From Tepidiphilus sp. (GTDB taxonomy: Bacteria; Pseudomonadota; Gammaproteobacteria; Burkholderiales; Rhodocyclaceae), in the NCBI GenBank assembly GCA_028684345.1, contig JAQUGB010000003.1:1-32610 (forward strand): a stretch of DNA of 32,610 nt. The letters run 5' to 3'. The number at the start of each line of letters is the position of its first letter. Position 1 is the stretch's first letter. The notes beneath the pieces were generated by a model. That model saw nothing but the letters and a program-made list of their open reading frames with translations. It made no database searches and was not told where the DNA came from. The translations under genes and the position numbers were made by a program. Below are positions 2,898 to 30,238 of the stretch, piece by piece.

Positions 2898-4355
2898 ATG
2901 ATCCCGCCAGACCTCGCTGCGCGGATACGCATGATGGTCGAGGCGGAGCTGCTGCGCCCCGAGACGCAGGTCGGCGGGGTGGAGCGCATCCGCCCCCTTC
3001 CGGAGCGCCTGCCGGAGGTGCTCCCGGGGCAGGTGCTGCGTGCCACCATCCAGCGACCGTTGCCCGAGGGCACCTACCAGGCGGTAGTGGCGGGGCGTGA
3101 AATGACGCTCGCGCTCGACCAGCCAGTGAAGAGCGGCGATACCCTGGAGCTGGTGGTCGAGCGGCAGGTAGGCGGCACCATTTACGCCCGCCGCCAGGAA
3201 GGGCAGGAAGGAGCGGATCGGGGCATGGCGGGTGCCTCGGCGCGCACCCAGCTCTCCTCGGCCGGCGAGCTTCTGCGGCAAGTGCTGACGCAGCCCACCC
3301 CGCAGCGCCTGCCCCTGCCTGCCGGCACGGAACGAGCCGCGCCGCTGCTGCCCGCCCCGCCCCAATCGCCCGCGGAAGTACAGCGCCTGGCCACGGCGCT
3401 GCAAGACAGCGTGCAGCGCTCGGGGCTCTTCTACGAATCCCATCTGGCACGGTGGATCCGGGGACAGTATCCGCTCGAATCCCTGCGCGCCGAGCCGCAC
3501 AACCTCGTGGCGCGGGCAACACCGGCGGTTCTGAGCGCAGAGGCGCCGCCGGGCGCGCCGGCGTCGGGCGCCGCGCCTGCCGCTGCCGGTGCCGTTCCTC
3601 CTGCTTCCGGTGCCGCACCTGCCGCTGGCACCGCCTCCCTTGCGGCTGCCTCCGCCGCGCTTGGCGCTGCCGGCGAAGAGGTTTCGTCGGCCGAGCGCGC
3701 CGCGTTGGTAGCGGCCGCCGCGCCCTCCCCTTTGCTGACCTGGCTCATGCGCAACGCCCCTGGCGCTGCTGCCGGGCGGGGGAGCGCCGAGCGGCTGCTC
3801 GCGGCCTTTCTCTCCGGGCAGATCCCTGCGTCCGGCGCCGAGGAGGCTGCGGCGCGCCCCGCCGTCGCGCCCGAGCGCGGCGCGCCCCCGGGCGGCGCAA
3901 CGGCAGCGACCACGGCAAGCGAGGGCGCACAGGGCGCCCCTCCTGCGAGCGCCAGCGCCATTCCCGAACGGCTGGTGCCGATCGTGCAACATCAGCTCGA
4001 CGCCCTGGCCACCCAGCAGCTGAACGTGCAGTTCGCCCCTTGGCCGGGTTTGCTCGTGCAGTGGCGCATCGAGGCGGAGGGGGAGCAGGACGGAAGGGCC
4101 GAAGGGGAGGAAGGCGAGGCGCCGGTGTGGCGCTCCACGCTGCGGCTGACCCTGCCCCGCCTGGGCGAGGTGACGGCGCAGCTGCAGTGGCAGCACGGAA
4201 CGCTCGAATTGCGTCTCACGGCCAGCCAGGAAGCAGCTTTGACGCGGATGCGCGCCGCAGCGCCCATGCTGGCCTCGGCTTTGGAGGCGGACGGCATTCG
4301 CGTCACGAAGATCGAGGTCGCGGCGCAGGAGGGGATGGATGCAACCGAAGAATGA
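2898..4355 (+). CDS. FliK-like hook-length control family protein (non-operonic paralogue)
   Basis: A 485-residue protein with a folded N-terminal part (about 1-95), a long Ala/Pro/Gly linker (about 200-360, with repeats such as GAAPAA) and a C-terminal globular domain (about 365-475). The C-terminal part resembles the FliK Flg_hook domain: LRLTLPRLGEVTAQLQWQHG followed by LELRLTA and a final helix-strand segment. A second, canonical FliK is encoded at 14667, so this copy is a paralogue or specialised regulator. It overlaps the next gene, a stand-alone FlhB C-terminal homologue, by 17 bases. FliK and the FlhB C-terminus are known partners in the substrate-specificity switch, which supports a related role. 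The ATG at 2898 has GGAGGTGATGAG just upstream. Moderate confidence in family, low in exact role. Confidence 0.65.
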   Translation: MIPPDLAARIRMMVEAELLRPETQVGGVERIRPLPERLPEVLPGQVLRATIQRPLPEGTYQAVVAGREMTLALDQPVKSGDTLELVVERQVGGTIYARRQEGQEGADRGMAGASARTQLSSAGELLRQVLTQPTPQRLPLPAGTERAAPLLPAPPQSPAEVQRLATALQDSVQRSGLFYESHLARWIRGQYPLESLRAEPHNLVARATPAVLSAEAPPGAPASGAAPAAAGAVPPASGAAPAAGTASLAAASAALGAAGEEVSSAERAALVAAAAPSPLLTWLMRNAPGAAAGRGSAERLLAAFLSGQIPASGAEEAAARPAVAPERGAPPGGATAATTASEGAQGAPPASASAIPERLVPIVQHQLDALATQQLNVQFAPWPGLLVQWRIEAEGEQDGRAEGEEGEAPVWRSTLRLTLPRLGEVTAQLQWQHGTLELRLTASQEAALTRMRAAAPMLASALEADGIRVTKIEVAAQEGMDATEE

Positions 4356-6219: not shown

Positions 6220-6546
6220 TCACACCGGCATGTTCATGATGTCTTGGTAGGCGCTCACCAGGCGGTTGCGCACCTGCACCATCTGGTTGAAGGCGAGCGA
6301 AGCCTTTTCCAGGTCGATCATGACGTTTTGCAGGTCGACGTTGGGGTCGCCCGCGCTGAAGCGATCGGCTTGCTCGCGCGCCTGGGTCTGCGCCTGGCTC
6401 ACGTCTTTGAGGGCGGAATCGAGCACGGAGGCGAAATCGACCTGCCCCGCCGCTTGCGGCGCTTCGGCGGCCGCGGGCTTGCCCTGGGCGATCGCTTGGG
6501 CACGCTGCATCTCGGCGAGCAGTTGGTTGATGCCGTTGGTGTCCAT
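6220..6546 (-). CDS. fliE: Flagellar hook-basal body protein FliE
   Basis: A 108-residue FliE, the periplasmic adaptor joining the MS ring (FliF) to the rod and required for rod export. The C-terminal part shows the family signature: VDLQNVMIDLEKASLAFNQM then VQVRNRLVSAYQDIMNMPV. Length matches the family. Two in-frame ATGs exist at 6552 and 6546; AGGAGG at 6554-6559 is one base from the first and seven from the second, so 6546 is preferred. The gene follows fleS-fleR on the minus strand, 38 bases after the fleR stop, and is transcribed away from fliF, although fliE and fliF are usually codirectional. Only the gene order is unusual; the protein looks normal. Confidence 0.92.
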   Translation of the reverse strand: MDTNGINQLLAEMQRAQAIAQGKPAAAEAPQAAGQVDFASVLDSALKDVSQAQTQAREQADRFSAGDPNVDLQNVMIDLEKASLAFNQMVQVRNRLVSAYQDIMNMPV

Positions 6547-6581
6547 GGTCATGCCTCCTGTCCTTCACAGGCCCTTCGTTC

Positions 6582-6590
6582 ATTCTAGCA
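6582..6590 (-). promoter_or_regulatory. Possible extended -10 promoter for fliE
   Basis: On the minus strand TGCTAGAAT fits an extended -10 (TGnTATAAT) with one mismatch and overlaps the fleR stop codon. Transcription would start near 6575, about 29 bases ahead of fliE. No good -35 or sigma-54 element is visible here, so fliE could also simply be read through from fleSR. Confidence 0.28.
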
Positions 6591-7979
6591 TTGTTCGTCG
6601 CCCGGAATGGCGTAGCCTTCGGCGCGGTAGCGCTGCAGCTTGTAGCGCAGGGTTCGCTCGGAGATGCCGAGCCGTTCGACCGCGCGCTTGCGCGATCCGC
6701 CCACTTCGCGCAGCACGCGCAGGATGTGCTCGCGCTCGCGCTCGCGCACCGTCTGGGCACTGCCCTCCTCTTCGTGCGCCACGGGAGCGAAGTTCGGCGC
6801 CGCGACTGCCGCTGCCCTCGGTTCTTGCGCTGCTCTGGCCTGCGAGCCCGCGCGCGCAGGCAGGCAGGCGGTGAGCGCCGCGGCGTCGATCGCGTTGCCG
6901 GGGGCGAGGATGAGGGCACGCTGCAAGGTGTTCTCCAGTTCGCGGACGTTGCCGGGCCAATCGTATTGAAGCAAGATTCGTGCCGCCTCGTCGGTAAGCG
7001 TGGCGCCGTTCTTGCCGAAGCGTGCGCCGTGCACGGCGAGAAAGCGCTGCGCGAGCGGCAGGATGTCGCCAGGGCGCTCGCGCAGCGGCGGGATGCGCAA
7101 GGGGAAGACGGCGAGGCGGTAGTAGAGATCCTGGCGGAAGCGCCCGGCGGCGACTTCCGCGGGCAGGTCGCGGTTGGTGGTGGCGAGGATGCGTACGTCG
7201 AGTGGAATCGGCTTGCGCCCGCCGAGGCGCTCGACTTCCTTTTCCTGAAGAACGCGCAGCAGCTTGGCCTGCAACGCGAGCGGCATTTCGGAGATTTCGT
7301 CGAGCAGCAGCGTGCCGTGCTGCGCCTGCTCGAACTTGCCGGGTTGGGCGGTGCCCGCGCCGGTGAAGGCGCCTTTCTCGTGGCCGAAGAGGGTGGCTTC
7401 GAGCAGATGTTCGGGAATGGCGGCGCAGTTGATGGCCACGAACGGCCCGTCGTGCCGCGGGGAATGGCGGTGCAGGAAGCGGGCATAGACTTCCTTGCCC
7501 ACGCCCGATTCGCCTTCGAGGAGCACGGTGGCGTCGGTCTGGGCCACGCGCTCGGCCAGTTGCAGCAGCTGGCGGCTGGCGGGGTCGGCGGCGACGAGTT
7601 CGTCGTCTCCGCCGGGCTGGGCGTACTTGCGCACGAGGGAGAGGAGCGCCGTCGGCTCGAAGGGCTTGAGGAGGAATTCGCAAGCGCCGCCGCGCATGGC
7701 GGCCACGGCGCTGGCGACGTCGCCATAGGCGGTCATGATGGCCACCGGCAGCTGCGGCAGCCGCCGGCGCACGGCCTCGAGCACTTCGAGCCCGTTCATG
7801 GGGGACATTTTGAGGTCGGTGAGCACCATGGCCAACGCTTCGTGCTCGAGCGCGGCGAGCGCTTCGGGGCCGGAGCCGACGGCGATGGGGCGGTAGCCGC
7901 CCACTTCCAGCGTGAGCGCGACGGCGTCGCGCAGGTTCGCGTCGTCCTCGACGATGAGGATCGGCAGCGGTTCGCTCAT
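6585..7979 (-). CDS. fleR: Sigma-54-dependent response regulator, FleR/FlrC type
   Basis: A 464-residue NtrC-family activator. Residues 1-118 are a receiver domain with acidic pocket D12/D13, phosphoacceptor D55 (VLTDLKM), T83 and K105. Residues about 127-360 are a sigma-54 interaction AAA+ domain with Walker A GESGVGKE (156-163), the GAFTGA loop (203-208) that contacts sigma-54, Walker B LLLDEISEM and the R-finger region. The C-terminus (about 420-460) is a Fis-type helix-turn-helix (RKRAVERLGISERTLRYKLQ). In Pseudomonas and Vibrio the FleSR/FlrBC pair turns on mid-class flagellar genes. It overlaps fleS by four bases. The exact sigma-54 site ahead of fliK is a natural target. Family assignment is firm; the symbol is by analogy and context. 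Confidence 0.88.
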   Translation of the reverse strand: MSEPLPILIVEDDANLRDAVALTLEVGGYRPIAVGSGPEALAALEHEALAMVLTDLKMSPMNGLEVLEAVRRRLPQLPVAIMTAYGDVASAVAAMRGGACEFLLKPFEPTALLSLVRKYAQPGGDDELVAADPASRQLLQLAERVAQTDATVLLEGESGVGKEVYARFLHRHSPRHDGPFVAINCAAIPEHLLEATLFGHEKGAFTGAGTAQPGKFEQAQHGTLLLDEISEMPLALQAKLLRVLQEKEVERLGGRKPIPLDVRILATTNRDLPAEVAAGRFRQDLYYRLAVFPLRIPPLRERPGDILPLAQRFLAVHGARFGKNGATLTDEAARILLQYDWPGNVRELENTLQRALILAPGNAIDAAALTACLPARAGSQARAAQEPRAAAVAAPNFAPVAHEEEGSAQTVREREREHILRVLREVGGSRKRAVERLGISERTLRYKLQRYRAEGYAIPGDEQC

Positions 7980-9100
7980 GCGTCCTCCATTGGCGGTGGG
8001 GAAAGCGGCAGCGAGAGCACGAAGCGGCTGCCCTCGCCGGGGCGGGAGAAGGCTTCGATGTCACCGCCGTGCGCCCGTGCCACGCCGCGGGCGATCGCCA
8101 GCCCCAGTCCCGTGCCTTCGCTGCGGGTGGTGAAAAACGGTTCGAAAATGCGCTCCAGTGTGTCGGCGGCGATGCCGGGGCCCTCGTCGCGCACGACGAG
8201 ATGCACCCGATCCCCCTCGCGTTCCCCTTCGAGGCGCACCGTGCCGCCTTCGGAAATGGCCTGCAGGGCGTTCTCCAGCAGATTGGTGAGGGCTCCGGCG
8301 AGCGCCTTGGCATCCCCCTGGACCCAGGCGCCGGCGAGGGGTTCCACGGCGCCTTCGAGCCGGGCGCGTTTGGCGGCAGCAAGCGGTTCGAGGGCGTGCA
8401 GTGTCTCGCGGGCAAGCGGCTCCAGCGCCACCGGCCTGCGCGCGCCGCCTTCGCCGCGTGCGAAGAGCAGCATGTCGCCGATGAGCCGTTCGAGGTGGCG
8501 CAGCCGCTCCTGCGCCCGCTCGGCGAGCTGGGCGCGGCGCTCGGGCGGCAGTTCGCCGGCGGCGAGGTTGCCGACGTAGAGCATGGCGGCGGCCAGCGGC
8601 GTGCGCAGCTGGTGCGCGAGCGCCGCCACCATTTCGCCCATGGCGGCGAGCCGAAGGTTGCGCTCCATCGCCTGGCGCAGGCGGTGCGCTTCGGTGACGT
8701 CGTGCAGCAGCAGGAGCCGCCCGCCGTGGGCGGCGAGATCGGCCCCGGAGAGGTTGAGCCGGCGGGCCGACCCGTCGGGCAAGGGCAACTCCACTTCCTG
8801 CGGCGTGTCGGTCGGCCGGAGCGTGGCGGCGAGTTCCGCCCACGCGCGCCCTTCCGGTTCGAGGCCGGGCCACAACGCCTTGGCCGCCCGGTTTGCCTGC
8901 ACGACGCGGTCTTGGGCATCGAGCACCAGCACGCCGGCCGGCAACGCCTGCAGCAGCACTTCCAGTCGCTCGGAGAGCATCCGGGCGCGCGCCTGCAGCG
9001 CCTCGTAAGACCGCGTGAGCGCGTCGGAGGCGCGGGCGAACTGCTCGAAGGCAAGGGCGAGCTGTTCGGGCGTGAGCGAGGCGGCGGAATCGGCGGTCAT
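7976..9100 (-). CDS. fleS: Cytoplasmic sensor histidine kinase, FleS/FlrB type
   Basis: A 374-residue kinase without membrane segments, as in FleS/FlrB. Residues about 45-140 form a PAS-like domain (PAGVLVLDAQDRVVQANRAA). The dimerisation domain carries the phosphorylated histidine in LAHQLRTPLAAAML (H163). The ATP-binding domain shows the N box LTNLLENALQAISEG, the G1 box DEGPGIAADTLE, FEPFFTT and GTGLGLAIARG. It should phosphorylate the receiver of the adjacent FleR, with which it overlaps by four bases. The start ATG lacks a strong ribosome site (AAGAAACC upstream), and a TATAGT box ends only nine bases before it, so translation may begin on a nearly leaderless transcript or the promoter may lie further up. 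The input signal is unknown. Confidence 0.88.
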   Translation of the reverse strand: MTADSAASLTPEQLALAFEQFARASDALTRSYEALQARARMLSERLEVLLQALPAGVLVLDAQDRVVQANRAAKALWPGLEPEGRAWAELAATLRPTDTPQEVELPLPDGSARRLNLSGADLAAHGGRLLLLHDVTEAHRLRQAMERNLRLAAMGEMVAALAHQLRTPLAAAMLYVGNLAAGELPPERRAQLAERAQERLRHLERLIGDMLLFARGEGGARRPVALEPLARETLHALEPLAAAKRARLEGAVEPLAGAWVQGDAKALAGALTNLLENALQAISEGGTVRLEGEREGDRVHLVVRDEGPGIAADTLERIFEPFFTTRSEGTGLGLAIARGVARAHGGDIEAFSRPGEGSRFVLSLPLSPPPMEDA

Positions 9101-12753: not shown

Positions 12754-14150
12754 GCGAGACCGAAGCGCTCGTCCTCGATCCCTTGCAGCAACGCCTGCGC
12801 ACCTGGCGCGAGGCATTGCGCCACACGCCGGCCTTCACCAAAGCCGGGCGACTCGTGCGCATCAACGGCCTGGTGATGGAAACCATGGGCCTCAAGCTGC
12901 CGCTGGGGGCGAGCTGCCGCATCGAAACCCCCACGGGCGGCAGCGTGGAAGCGGAGGTGGTGGGTTTCCAGGGGGACAAGCTCTTTCTCATGCCCACCGA
13001 GGAGGTCTATGGCCTCGCCCCGGGGGCGCGGGTCCTGCCGCCCGAACCGCCGCCCATTCCGCTGCATGCCGACGAGCTTCCCGAAACCCCTTCGCCCGAT
13101 CGCGCCAAGCACCTCCCCGCCGGGGAAGCGTTGCTGGGGCGCGTGGTCGATGCCGCGGGGCGTCCGCTCGACGGCAAGGGGCCGCTTGCCGGCGCCACGC
13201 TGCGCCCGCTCTTCGCCCCGCCGATCAATCCGCTCGCCCGCACGCCCATCGACACGCCGCTCGACGTGGGCATCCGCGCGATCAACGCGCTGCTCACCGT
13301 CGGAAGGGGTCAGCGGCTGGGGCTCTTCGCCGGCTCGGGGGTGGGGAAATCGGTGCTCATCGGCATGATGGCGCGCTTCACCGTGGCCGAGGTGATTGTC
13401 GTGGGGCTGATCGGCGAGCGCGGCCGGGAAGTGAAGGAATTCATCGAACAAAACCTCGGCCCCGAGGGGCTCGCGCGGGCCGTGGTGGTGGCTGCCCCCG
13501 CCGACGTGAGCCCGCTTTTGCGGCTGCAAGGCGCGGCCTATGCCACGGCGATCGCCGAGCAGTTCCGCGACGAAGGCCGCCACGTGCTCCTCATCATGGA
13601 TTCCCTCACCCGCTACGCCATGGCGCAGCGCGAGATCGCGCTCGCCGTGGGCGAGCCGCCGGTGACCAAGGGTTATCCCCCCTCGGTGTTCGCCCGGCTT
13701 CCCTCTCTCGTCGAGCGAACCGGGAATGGTGCCGACAATCAAGGTTCGATTACAGCATTTTATACGGTACTCACCGAGGGCGACGACCAGCAGGATCCGA
13801 TCGCCGACGCCGCCCGCGCCATTCTCGACGGTCACTTCGTGCTCTCGCGTGCGCTCGCCGACAGCGGTCACTACCCGGCCATCGACATCGAACAGTCGAT
13901 CTCGCGCGTGATGCCCCAGGTGGTGAGCGAAGAACACCTCGCGCTCGCCCGCCGTTTCAAGAAACTCTGGTCGCGCTACCAGCGCGCCCGGGATCTCATC
14001 GCCGTGGGGGCCTACCAGCCCGGCGCCGACGTCGAGCTCGACGAAGCGGTACGACGCCAGCCGGCGATGGCCGCTTTCCTGCAACAGGGCATGAACGAAT
14101 GCGTGTCCTTTACCGAGGCCTGCGAAGGCTTGCGCCGCGTGCTCGCCTGA
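12750..14150 (+). CDS. fliI: Flagellum-specific export ATPase FliI
   Basis: A 466-residue F1-beta-like ATPase that feeds substrates to the flagellar type III export gate. Walker A is AGSGVGKS (194-201), followed by [19 protein letters not shown] and Walker [21 protein letters not shown]. The conserved [18 protein letters not shown] and the C-terminal domain ending in [11 protein letters not shown] are present. The N-terminal ~30 residues provide the FliH-binding segment. The four-base overlap with fliH suggests matched expression with its regulator. No missing catalytic residues were seen. Confidence 0.96.
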
Positions 14151-14163
14151 AAGGAAAGCTCCC

Positions 14164-14610
14164 ATGAGCAAGAACCGGTTCCGCATGTTGCGTGAGCTGA
14201 TGCAGCGGCAGGAGGACGAAGCGGCCGAAGCGATGGGCGCCTGTATCCGCCGCCATCGCGACGCGGAGGAAAAACGTGATCTGCTCGAACGTTTTCGTAG
14301 CGAATACGAAGAAAAACTGCGCCAGGCGCTGCGCGACGCGGCCCCGCCCGAGCTCATCGTCAACCACCGCGGTTTTCTGGCGCGGCTCGACGAAGCGCTC
14401 ATGCTACAGCACGAAGAGCTCGAGCGCCTGAGGCATCTGCTCGAAGAATCGCGCCGCGCGTGGCTGGCGGCGCGCACCCGTCGCCGCGCTTTCGAAGTGC
14501 TGGAAGCGCGCGCCGATGCCGAAGCGATGGCCCAGGCAGAACGGCTGGCACAGAAAGCACTCGATGAACATGCGACACAGAATCATCTGCGCCGTGAACG
14601 AGAATTCTGA
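14164..14610 (+). CDS. fliJ: Flagellar export protein FliJ
   Basis: A 148-residue, almost wholly coiled-coil protein, thirteen bases after fliI, in the usual fliJ position. The composition is rich in Arg/Glu/Ala heptads (FRMLRELMQRQEDEAAEAMG; EELERLRHLLEESRRAWLAA). FliJ inserts in the FliI hexamer like the gamma subunit of F1 and connects it to FlhA. AAAGGAAAG precedes the ATG. It ends just four bases before a sigma-54 promoter, so the fliF-fliJ and fliK-fliN blocks appear to be separable transcription units. Confidence 0.88.
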   Translation: MSKNRFRMLRELMQRQEDEAAEAMGACIRRHRDAEEKRDLLERFRSEYEEKLRQALRDAAPPELIVNHRGFLARLDEALMLQHEELERLRHLLEESRRAWLAARTRRRAFEVLEARADAEAMAQAERLAQKALDEHATQNHLRREREF

Positions 14611-14614
14611 ACTC

Positions 14615-14630
14615 TGGCACCCTTTTTGCT
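14615..14630 (+). promoter_or_regulatory. Sigma-54 promoter upstream of fliK
   Basis: TGGCAC-CCTTT-TTGCT matches the sigma-54 consensus TGGCAC-N5-TTGCW at every defined position, with correct GG/GC spacing. The transcription start is expected near 14641, leaving a 26-base leader to the fliK ATG. It lies in the 56-base fliJ-fliK gap. The FleR-type activator encoded at 6585 is the obvious candidate to drive it. Other sigma-54-like sequences in the window failed on spacing. Confidence 0.85.
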
Positions 14631-14666
14631 CATGTTCAGTCGTCATCGCCCTCTCGGGAGTGTTTC

Positions 14667-16151
14667 ATGAACCTGCAAACCGTCGCCCCCCGGGGTATCG
14701 ATGTCCTCCGTGGCCTCAGTTTCACCGAGGCTGCAACGACCGCACCAGCGAGCGATACGTTCGCCCAGCTTCTCGAGCGCCGGAACGCCGAGACCCGAAA
14801 CGCATCACGCGAGAATCCCTCTGCCCCGAGGCCGGCGAACGAGCAACCGCCCTCGACGACGAACGCCACCCCGGAAAAACGCACCGACACGCCCGAGCCC
14901 CCTGCACCGACACAACCTGCACGCGACCCGGTCGAGCCGTCGACACCCACCGCCAACGGGGACGCAACGGCAACCGCACCCGCGGCAGTGTCAGAAACGG
15001 CGCAGTCTCAGGCGGTGTCCTCAAACCACGACACGAACGAGGAAAAGACTACTCCGCTCGAGGGCACGCTCCCACCCTCCGATCCCGGCCTTCTTCCCGG
15101 GGCAGTGATACTCCTTTCCACACCTGCAGCAAGCGGTGGCCCCAGCGCCTCCGAGCCGAAAACCGACGTCCTCGTGCCCTCGGCCGCATCGGCAGAAATT
15201 GCCGTCTCCCCTGCAGTTTCCGCCGCCACGAGCAAATCGGCCGAATCAACCGCCTCTGCCGCCTCTGCATCGCTCGAGGCCGCAGCCAAGCATTTTCGCT
15301 CCATCGTCCTAGAGGATCCCTCCCGCTCGCCCGTTTCCCCGACCGAGGATCCCGAACGACCCCTCGCCCCAGCCACCCCACAACCGCTGCAAACCGCAAT
15401 CGAACGCCTCTTGCGCGACGCGAACGAATCCTCGGTCTCGGTCACCCCCCTGCCCGAGCACGCCCAACGCAGCCCTCGAGCCAGCCGGCAGGGGCTACCC
15501 TTGCCTGAAGGGGTCGTGCCGCCATTCGATCGCGGCCCCAAATCGGACATGACTCAGGCGACGCCGATCACGCTGCAGCCAGACCCTCTGAATACGTCCG
15601 AAGGCGTAGAAAAAGGCACGATACCCTCTGGACATCCTGCCGAAGGAAGCGCTGCCTCGCGTCACCCTGCGCTTTCCTCTTTCTCCCCCGCCCCGTCTTC
15701 CTCACCGGCCGCGGAAACGCGCACGCTCTCCGTGCATACGCCGCCCGCCGAAGTGGAACGCTGGGCGAGCGAAACCACGCAGCGCCTGGTCTGGCTGGCT
15801 GGGCGCGGCGAGACCAAAGCCGAGCTCCAGCTCACCCCGCCTTCGCTCGGCAAGCTGGAAATCAGCCTCATCGTCAACAACGATCAGCTCACGGCGCATT
15901 TCGTCGCGGCCAGCCAGGCCACCCGTGACGCCCTCGAGCATGCCCTGCCCCACTTGCGCGAGCAGCTCGCCCAGGCCGGTATGTCGCTGGGGCAAACGAG
16001 CGTGAGCACGGGGGATTCTTCCGACCAGCAAGACCAGAACGGATCCGCTTCCACCCCCGCCACGAACGAGGGTCGCTCCCAAGCATCCCCTGCCAGAGAG
16101 GAGGATGTGGGGCGCTTACTGCAGCGCGGCTTGATCGACCACTACGCCTGA
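14667..16151 (+). CDS. fliK: Flagellar hook-length control protein FliK
   Basis: A 494-residue FliK, the exported molecular ruler that stops hook growth and switches export to filament proteins by acting on FlhB. Residues 1-350 are a Pro/Thr/Ser/Ala-rich, low-complexity ruler part. The C-terminal Flg_hook domain (about 360-450) shows the signature AELQLTPPSLGKLEISLIVN, then AHFVAASQATRDALEHALPHLREQLAQAG. The ATG has CGGGAG 9-14 bases upstream. The ruler part is richer in A and C than neighbouring genes, as is common for disordered FliK linkers. It heads the likely sigma-54-driven fliK-fliL-fliM-fliN unit. A second FliK-like protein is encoded at 2898. Confidence 0.92.
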   Translation: MNLQTVAPRGIDVLRGLSFTEAATTAPASDTFAQLLERRNAETRNASRENPSAPRPANEQPPSTTNATPEKRTDTPEPPAPTQPARDPVEPSTPTANGDATATAPAAVSETAQSQAVSSNHDTNEEKTTPLEGTLPPSDPGLLPGAVILLSTPAASGGPSASEPKTDVLVPSAASAEIAVSPAVSAATSKSAESTASAASASLEAAAKHFRSIVLEDPSRSPVSPTEDPERPLAPATPQPLQTAIERLLRDANESSVSVTPLPEHAQRSPRASRQGLPLPEGVVPPFDRGPKSDMTQATPITLQPDPLNTSEGVEKGTIPSGHPAEGSAASRHPALSSFSPAPSSSPAAETRTLSVHTPPAEVERWASETTQRLVWLAGRGETKAELQLTPPSLGKLEISLIVNNDQLTAHFVAASQATRDALEHALPHLREQLAQAGMSLGQTSVSTGDSSDQQDQNGSASTPATNEGRSQASPAREEDVGRLLQRGLIDHYA

Positions 16152-27509: not shown

Positions 27510-29050
<1,541 letters not shown>

Positions 29051-29053
29051 CGA

Positions 29054-29192
29054 ACACCTCGAATAACCTACTGCGCGGCTCCATGGCGGCGTTCTCCGGT
29101 GCTCGGATGCTCGCCTATCTGGGTGATATGTCTCGCATCCTGCGCTCCGGGCGCCTTGCCCTGTAGCCGCTCGCGACGGTTCTTCGAGGTGT
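29054..29192. repeat. 139-bp near-symmetric palindromic element between ilvC and tilS
   Basis: The 15-base ends, ACACCTCGAATAACC (29054-29068) and GGTTCTTCGAGGTGT (29178-29192), are inverted copies matching 14 of 15 bases. Inner matched pairs share one centre near 29123: GCGGCT (29075-29080) with AGCCGC (29165-29170), CCGGTGC (29096-29102) with GCTCCGG (29144-29150), GGATGC (29105-29110) with GCATCC (29135-29140), and TATC (29116-29119) with GATA (29125-29128) around a TGGGT loop. The whole unit can fold into one long imperfect hairpin. It fills the gap between convergent genes. It contains no convincing gene. It resembles ERIC- or MITE-like palindromic repeats in layout, and may serve as a bidirectional terminator. 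Confidence 0.75.
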
Positions 29193-29203
29193 CGCCTTGG
29201 ATA

Positions 29204-30238
29204 TCAACCGCAGCGATAAGCGGCGTCGCACCCCTGCGGCGCCGCCTCCACCCACAGGCGCTCGCCGCGGGCGCACAGCCACGCATCCCCCAGGGGAAAA
29301 CGCCATACCCCGCCTGAATAGTCCGCCGCCTGGCGCAATCCTTCTTCTAAACGCCGGTGGGTCGGCGGCAGGGCCGGCAGCCGCAGGGTTGCCCAGCGCA
29401 CCAAATTCTTCTGCCGATGAACCGGCAACCGCAAAAACTCCGCCCAATCCCAGCCGCCCTGTGGATGACGCGCCCGCTCGTCGTCGAGTGCGGCCAGATC
29501 GTCCAGCCCCTGCTGCGCCTCGGCCATGGTTTCGGCGGTGCGCGCGAGCACCGCGCGCACGCCCGGCAACCTTTCCTCCAGCTGCGGCAGAATTTCCCCC
29601 CGCAGCCAGTTGCGGGTAAATGCCGCGCTCGCATTCGACGGATCCTCGACCCAGCGCACACCGCGTTCCCGCGCCCAGGCGATGAGCGCCTCCTTGGGCA
29701 GATCGAGGAAAGGGCGCAGCCACCACGGCGCCGCCGCCCCGGCCAGGGGCGCCGGAGCGATTCGCCGCATCGCCGCGAGCCCGGCCACTCCGGAACCGCG
29801 CAGGAAACGAAAGAGCACCGTCTCGGCCTGATCGTCGCGATGCTGCGCGAGCACCAGCGAATCCCCCGGCACGGCGGCGAGCGCCTGCAGACGCGCCGAG
29901 CGCGCCGCCGCTTCCAGCCCCTTGCCGGCCGGCTGCACGCGCACGTACGCCACCTGCAGTGGGACATCGACCGCGGCGCAATGCGCGCGCGCCGCCTCGA
30001 CCCAGGCGTCGGCCTGAGCGAGGAGCCCATGGTGCACATGCACCGCCCTCAGTTCCAGCGGAAATTGGCCGCGCGCCGCGGCAAGCGCATGCAGCAGCAC
30101 GGTGGAGTCGACCCCGCCGGAAAACCCCAGCACGAGCCGCAGCGGCCGCGAGGGCAGCCGCGCCGCAAGCGATTCGATCGCCTCGAAGATCGCCGCGGCG
30201 ACCGGCTCGCGCTCAGGTGCGCTCGACGAAACGGCCAT
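29204..30238 (-). CDS. tilS: tRNA(Ile)-lysidine synthase (short form)
   Basis: A 344-residue TilS, which attaches lysine to C34 of the CAU-anticodon isoleucine tRNA so it reads AUA. The N-terminal PP-loop ATPase has [16 protein letters not shown] (40-45 the core), [15 protein letters not shown] and [19 protein letters not shown]; the conserved WVEDPSNAS and [12 protein letters not shown] follow. The middle TilS domain (about 230-300) is recognisable, but the C-terminal domain found in enzymes of about 430 residues is missing; the protein ends shortly after GERLWVEAA. Short TilS proteins are known (for example in Aquifex), so this may work. The ATG overlaps the end of accA by 26 bases, indicating coupled translation. 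Confidence 0.9.

Follow-up and report, generated by a model that had tools for sequence, protein, structure and literature searches.

The ilvC–tilS gap of the window, by which we mean the whole 32,610-nucleotide stretch of Tepidiphilus sp. DNA under analysis, raises the question of why two convergent genes should be separated by one long, nearly symmetric palindrome. The initial annotation had described a large imperfect hairpin with matching ends and inner pairs sharing one centre, and this description was borne out. The terminal arms match at 14 of 15 positions (93%), the inner arms (29075–29087 and 29158–29170) match at 85%, and further nested pairs centre on the same point. RNA folding of positions 29040–29205 gave −76.7 kcal/mol on the plus strand and −75.5 kcal/mol on the minus strand, compared with means of −55.4 and −53.2 for shuffled sequence (z = −5.9 and −5.3, respectively); both strands thus fold 5–6 S.D. 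better than shuffled sequence, and none of 200 shuffles did as well. For the DNA fold of 29052–29194, z was −6.2. A chance hairpin was ruled out by these z-scores together with the copy number described below. The limits given by the family model lie 2 bases further out on each side than the 29054–29192 of the initial annotation, and the orientation of the copy was set by the core GCCTATC-N5-GATATGTCTCG (Table 1). Our reading, to which we assign a probability of roughly 0.93, is that the hairpin is a copy of an IS5-type MITE that was inserted in a common ancestor with T. olei and has undergone slight decay since then.

Table 1. Coordinates of the ilvC–tilS element, its neighbours, and related copies (window positions unless a locus is given)
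Feature	Position	Strand	Genome	Evidence or remark
ilvC (ketol-acid reductoisomerase), convergent neighbour	28034–29050	+	window	Pfam KARI_N, KARI_C
MITE copy, type A, 143 bp	29052–29194	+	window	full-length nhmmer/CM match, fold z, genome copies
Left terminal inverted repeat ACACCTCGAATAACC	29054–29068	+	window	family consensus GGGCACCTCGAATAACC
Inner stem, left half GGATGC	29105–29110	+	window	covaries between families with 29135–29140
Apical core GCCTATC-TGGGT-GATATGTCTCG	29113–29135	+	window	pattern scan, alignment; common to elements of several bacterial groups
Inner stem, right half GCATCC	29135–29140	+	window	covaries between families with 29105–29110
Right terminal inverted repeat, plus-strand reading GGTTCTTCGAGGTGT	29178–29192	−	window	arm comparison
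CCTTGGATA between element and tilS stop	29195–29203	.	window	alignment
tilS (tRNA-Ile-lysidine synthase), convergent neighbour	29204–30238	−	window	Pfam ATP_bind_3, TilS
Second family copy, type B, internally deleted, 77 bp	2800–2876	−	window	nhmmer E 3e-11
In-frame type-B copy in tilS	L189:2678–2820, L061, L062		T. olei, T. margaritifer	4-bp duplication CAAA
In-frame type-B copy in YgiQ-like radical-SAM gene	L259:13711–13853 in ORF 12910–15135		T. margaritifer	
In-frame type-A copy in hemY	L295:7643–7785 in ORF 6512–8287		G004	
1294-bp IS, two copies	L334:701–1994; L341:1281–2573		T. margaritifer	97.5% identical, type-A ends

BLAST of the element's own genome (1.83 Mb, 87% complete) returned 42 matches, about 30 of them with E<1e-5. 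A covariance model trained on 19 copies counted at least 44 copies in the same genome, at least 83, 12, 22, and 55 in four Tepidiphilus congeners, and at least 39 in another genus of the same family. Rather than a single copy, dozens of further copies are therefore present in the own genome and in the congeners. Copy number varies up to sevenfold among the four congeners (at least 12 to at least 83), and the many near-identical copies of one end type (type B, below) in T. olei suggest a recent burst. No DNA similar to the element was found in plasmids and phages. The second copy in the window (GGGAAACGCTGAATGATTGG ... TTTCTTCAGCGTCTCTC) lies just upstream of a fliK-like flagellar gene (2898–4355).

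Two main end types on a common interior were distinguished in Tepidiphilus: type A (GGGCACCTCGAATAACC), to which the window copy belongs, and type B (GGAAACGCTGAATAATTG). An exact 4-bp target duplication flanks 17 of the 47 copies of type A (1.0 expected from re-paired flanks) and 20 of the 41 copies of type B (4.5 expected), and flanking repeats of 3 and 5 bp occur at chance level for both types. Type B prefers CTAG, CTAA, and TTAG as targets; for type A none is clear. Joining the two flanks of each copy gave a match to an uninterrupted site in a relative in 29 of 117 cases, of which about 12 had at most 2 gapped bases. The target duplication that the initial annotation had proposed looking for is thus real for the family, at a fixed 4 bp far above chance in both types, and is not clear at the window copy itself. 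Because copies are dispersed, carry 4-bp duplications, and have empty counterparts, and with a length of 143 bp, terminal inverted repeats matching at 14 of 15 positions, and no coding signature in the core, the ilvC–tilS palindrome was assigned to the MITEs.

The history of the site itself could be read from the congeners. The element begins 2 bases after the ilvC stop codon (TAA, 29048–29050) and ends 9 bases short of that of tilS (TGA on the minus strand, 29204–29206). This copy is common to the window genome and T. olei, and the site is empty in G002, G003 (T. margaritifer), and G004, where the two stop codons overlap (...AACTAACCGC...). The element and the adjoining CCTTGGATA are both missing from these congeners in the alignment. 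Some 10 extra bases lie on the tilS side of the window copy in the alignment; these, together with the lack of a certain duplication, are as expected of an older copy. It had also been suggested that the palindrome may have replaced the end of tilS. The C terminus of TilS (...RCG) is the same with or without the insert in all readable species, and the stop codon alone differs (TAG to TGA); no part of tilS was therefore replaced.

A search for transposases that might move the element was carried out through PF01609 and PF13586 in relatives, because the IS5 N-terminal domain PF05598 gave no match in the own genome. In that genome (87% complete), we saw one weak PF01609 match and no intact transposase bounded by ends of type A or type B. 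Among the PF01609 and PF13586 loci of relatives, IS ends matching those of the MITE were found on a 1294-bp IS of T. margaritifer (end GGGCACCTCGAAAAACC, 17/17 and 14/17 matches to the A-type end), on a 1191-bp IS of Nitrosomonas (GGAAACTCTGATTAAG; ends GGAAACTCTGATTAAGT / GGAAGCTCTGATTAAGT, target TTAA), and on a 1325-bp IS of G023 (end CAGGCCGTTGAAAAAC). The transposases of all three match NF033581 (IS5 family), with intact frames far above the cut-off, so that type-A, B-like, and CAGGC ends are each also borne by an IS with an IS5-family transposase. The G023 transposase (L347:922–2004) is intact and 360 aa long. In both full-length T. margaritifer copies the transposase is split over two frames and apparently frameshifted. 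Shorter, internally deleted relatives of this IS were also seen (L230, L344, and L337). Comparison of MITE interiors with the three IS by BLAST at E 1e-10, across all loci compared, gave no match, and the MITE is therefore not a plain deletion derivative of those three IS. Mobilization in trans is what we infer, with the IS5-family transposases of IS with matching ends as the probable agents.

Occurrence of the core beyond the genus was followed by scanning GTDB genomes with the exact 18-base pattern GCCTATC-N5-GATATGTCTCG, which recovered at least 119 stretches. Among the matches listed, the core lies mainly in Nitrosomonas, Gallionella-type bacteria, Rhodocyclaceae, Accumulibacter, and Tepidiphilus, with others in Chromatiales, Geobacter, and a Nitrospirae MAG, thus covering beta-, gamma-, and delta-proteobacteria as well as that one MAG. 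Most of the listed matches come from MAGs; Nitrosomonas sp. Nm33, Denitromonas iodatirespirans, and two Tepidiphilus isolates are also represented. Nearly all the listed matches form palindromes close to 140 bp long; where the ends and the duplication are readable, 143 bp far outnumbers any other length. Across 58 diverse elements, pairing holds in 93.7% of the cells of the consensus structure, and both sides have changed in 16 of the 24 pairs. The covariation score was 0.419 compared with 0.141 for shuffled alignments, and all five measures lay above 500 shuffles and above all slid registers. The arms beside the loop covary as GGATGC/GCATCC, ACACCC/GGGTGC, and GAACCC/GGGTTC. Because the identity of the core is partly a product of the search pattern itself, and because inverted repeats may undergo arm correction, function is proven by neither. 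The Tepidiphilus and G023 copies, recovered through similarity over the whole element, are conserved to a fairly even degree along it. The core was rejected as coding sequence, its three codon positions being conserved to much the same degree (major-base frequency 0.60, 0.55, and 0.56).

MITEs are usually viewed as decayed remnants of a single parent insertion sequence. At least five end types were found on this core, namely A, B, GAGCTTGTGAATAAATC, CAGGCTGTTGAAAAACT (YTAR), and GGAACCTCTATAAATCC. Elements with GAGCTTGTGAATAAATC-type ends (L096, L145, L112, L120, and others) have an apparent duplication of TCA (3 bp) or CTCAG (5 bp), pointing to a different transposase subgroup. Different ends occur on cores that are 87–92% identical over 92 bases, and end types do not track the core phylogeny: the end labels require at least 20 changes on the core tree, the GAGCTTGTG-type ends at least 6, and two core clades with GAGCTTGTG-type ends are split by a fully supported branch in a tree most of whose forks are weak. 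The most economical reading that this suggests is of one hairpin core repeatedly gaining new ends; parallel evolution of the ends may be the alternative. Stated more broadly, and tentatively, the hairpin core may be a long-lived unit that gains IS5-type ends, keeps its fold and often its 143 bp, crosses phyla by whichever transposase is present, and yields a 49-codon insert where the duplication is 4 bp.

That insert length follows from 143 + 4 bp = 147 bp, and copies within three conserved genes were found to leave the frame open. In the tilS genes of T. olei and T. margaritifer, an in-frame type-B copy with no counterpart in congeners lies directly before the PP-loop motif SGGVDS. The YgiQ-like ORF of T. 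margaritifer is ~49 residues longer by a type-B copy, a stretch missing in four congeners, and the HemY ORF of G004 is ~48 residues longer by a type-A copy, the residues being missing in three congeners. All three genes run against the core orientation and use the identical reading frame of the element; the window copy is intergenic. These three are the cases confirmed against congeners without the insert, out of ten long ORFs across copies that were tested with Pfam; two others of the ten have domains only downstream of the element. The long open frames that cross most copies were considered as genes and, the genome being GC-rich, set aside as mostly spurious. That such an insert can be carried as a translated peptide belongs to the same reading of a core with changing ends, and is held, from ORF comparison, with similar reserve.

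Other explanations of the hairpin were weighed against this evidence. It might serve the host as a bidirectional terminator or mRNA-stabilizing hairpin for the convergent genes, and its very stable fold on both strands and its location between ilvC and tilS, whose ends are kept, are what would be expected of one. The initial annotation had likewise raised termination of both genes. However, a search for an intrinsic terminator gave no terminator-like site, the element is missing in three congeners whose ilvC and tilS overlap, and the same element occupies dozens of unrelated places, some inside genes; we regard such a host role as unlikely. The strong covariation would fit a family of structured non-coding RNAs in which the conserved hairpin is what functions. 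Arm correction can make inverted repeats covary as well, however, and the signature of transposition is clear. An Rfam search with the element gave no match up to E 5, and the G–U excess on one strand is mostly due to three columns, which gives no clear sign of a general strand preference. An RNA product is accordingly given little credence.

A REP/BIME-type element moved by a RAYT (Y1, HUH) transposase would also be palindromic, dispersed, and mostly non-coding. The own genome, 87% complete, gave no Y1_Tnp (PF01797) match, and terminal inverted repeats with 4-bp duplications are of the DDE type rather than the HUH type; the duplications largely refute this explanation, which we consider highly improbable. 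Under the preferred reading, the ancestor shared by the window species and T. olei received an IS5-type MITE where the stop codons of ilvC and tilS overlapped, and this copy then decayed slightly. Movement would have depended on the IS5-type transposases of IS with matching ends, or on intact relatives of them. The palindrome would be kept by the mobile life cycle, whether because hairpins form, because the arms correct each other, or because transposition needs it, and any effect on the 3′ ends of ilvC or tilS mRNA would be a by-product. For the cell, the window copy probably serves little or no function.

Among known systems, the initial annotation had likened the palindrome to ERIC/MITE-type repeats. 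The MITE half of that comparison stands on the many copies, duplications, and empty sites, whereas the ERIC half had to be dropped. ERIC is a conserved enterobacterial sequence inserted at TA; our element, although also a palindromic interspersed bacterial repeat, has no Rfam match, occurs in a non-enterobacterial host, and makes its 4-bp duplication without a TA rule. REP/BIME repeats are alike in the same general sense and differ in hosts, in target duplication, and in the RAYT, for which the own genome showed no match. None of the papers searched prints the element's sequence. Rickettsia palindromic elements (RPE) are ~150-bp palindromes lying in frame in conserved protein genes and leaving the frame open (PMC10969869). 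By description, not by sequence, our in-frame palindromes inside conserved genes resemble them; unlike RPE, ours have terminal inverted repeats, target duplications, and IS5 partners, live in unrelated hosts, and seem mostly to lie outside genes. The copies in TilS, the radical-SAM protein, and HemY provide a second setting, outside Rickettsia, for asking whether mobile palindromes lengthen proteins with added peptides. Geobacter metallireducens and G. bemidjiensis have unnamed multicopy palindromic families, one of which, in the passages that describe them, lies inside genes without frameshifts (PMC2700814, PMC2996986). Compared by description only, these are likewise dispersed palindromes, and Geobacter MAGs carry our core; the same passages state no transposase or cross-phylum link for theirs (PMC2700814, PMC2996986).

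The closest likeness is to IS5-family MITEs, which are also short, without a gene, high in copy number, and bounded by terminal inverted repeats that match IS with NF033581 transposases, with a 4-bp duplication and the YTAR preference seen in our type B. In contrast to them, our element is palindromic over its whole length, its interior is not traceable to the matching IS at the sensitivity of the search, and one core, mostly of 143 bp, carries at least five end types in several groups. If one core, at a mostly fixed length, does carry several unrelated IS5-type ends in Proteobacteria and Nitrospirae, a change of ends would allow such elements to persist beyond the transposase of their parent. 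For genome annotators, the family offers a searchable repeat where dozens of gaps and ORF extensions had no explanation. The IS5-type MITE is a kind already known; what is new here, to the extent that this could be verified, is a common core with several ends, a mostly fixed length, and in-frame insertions.
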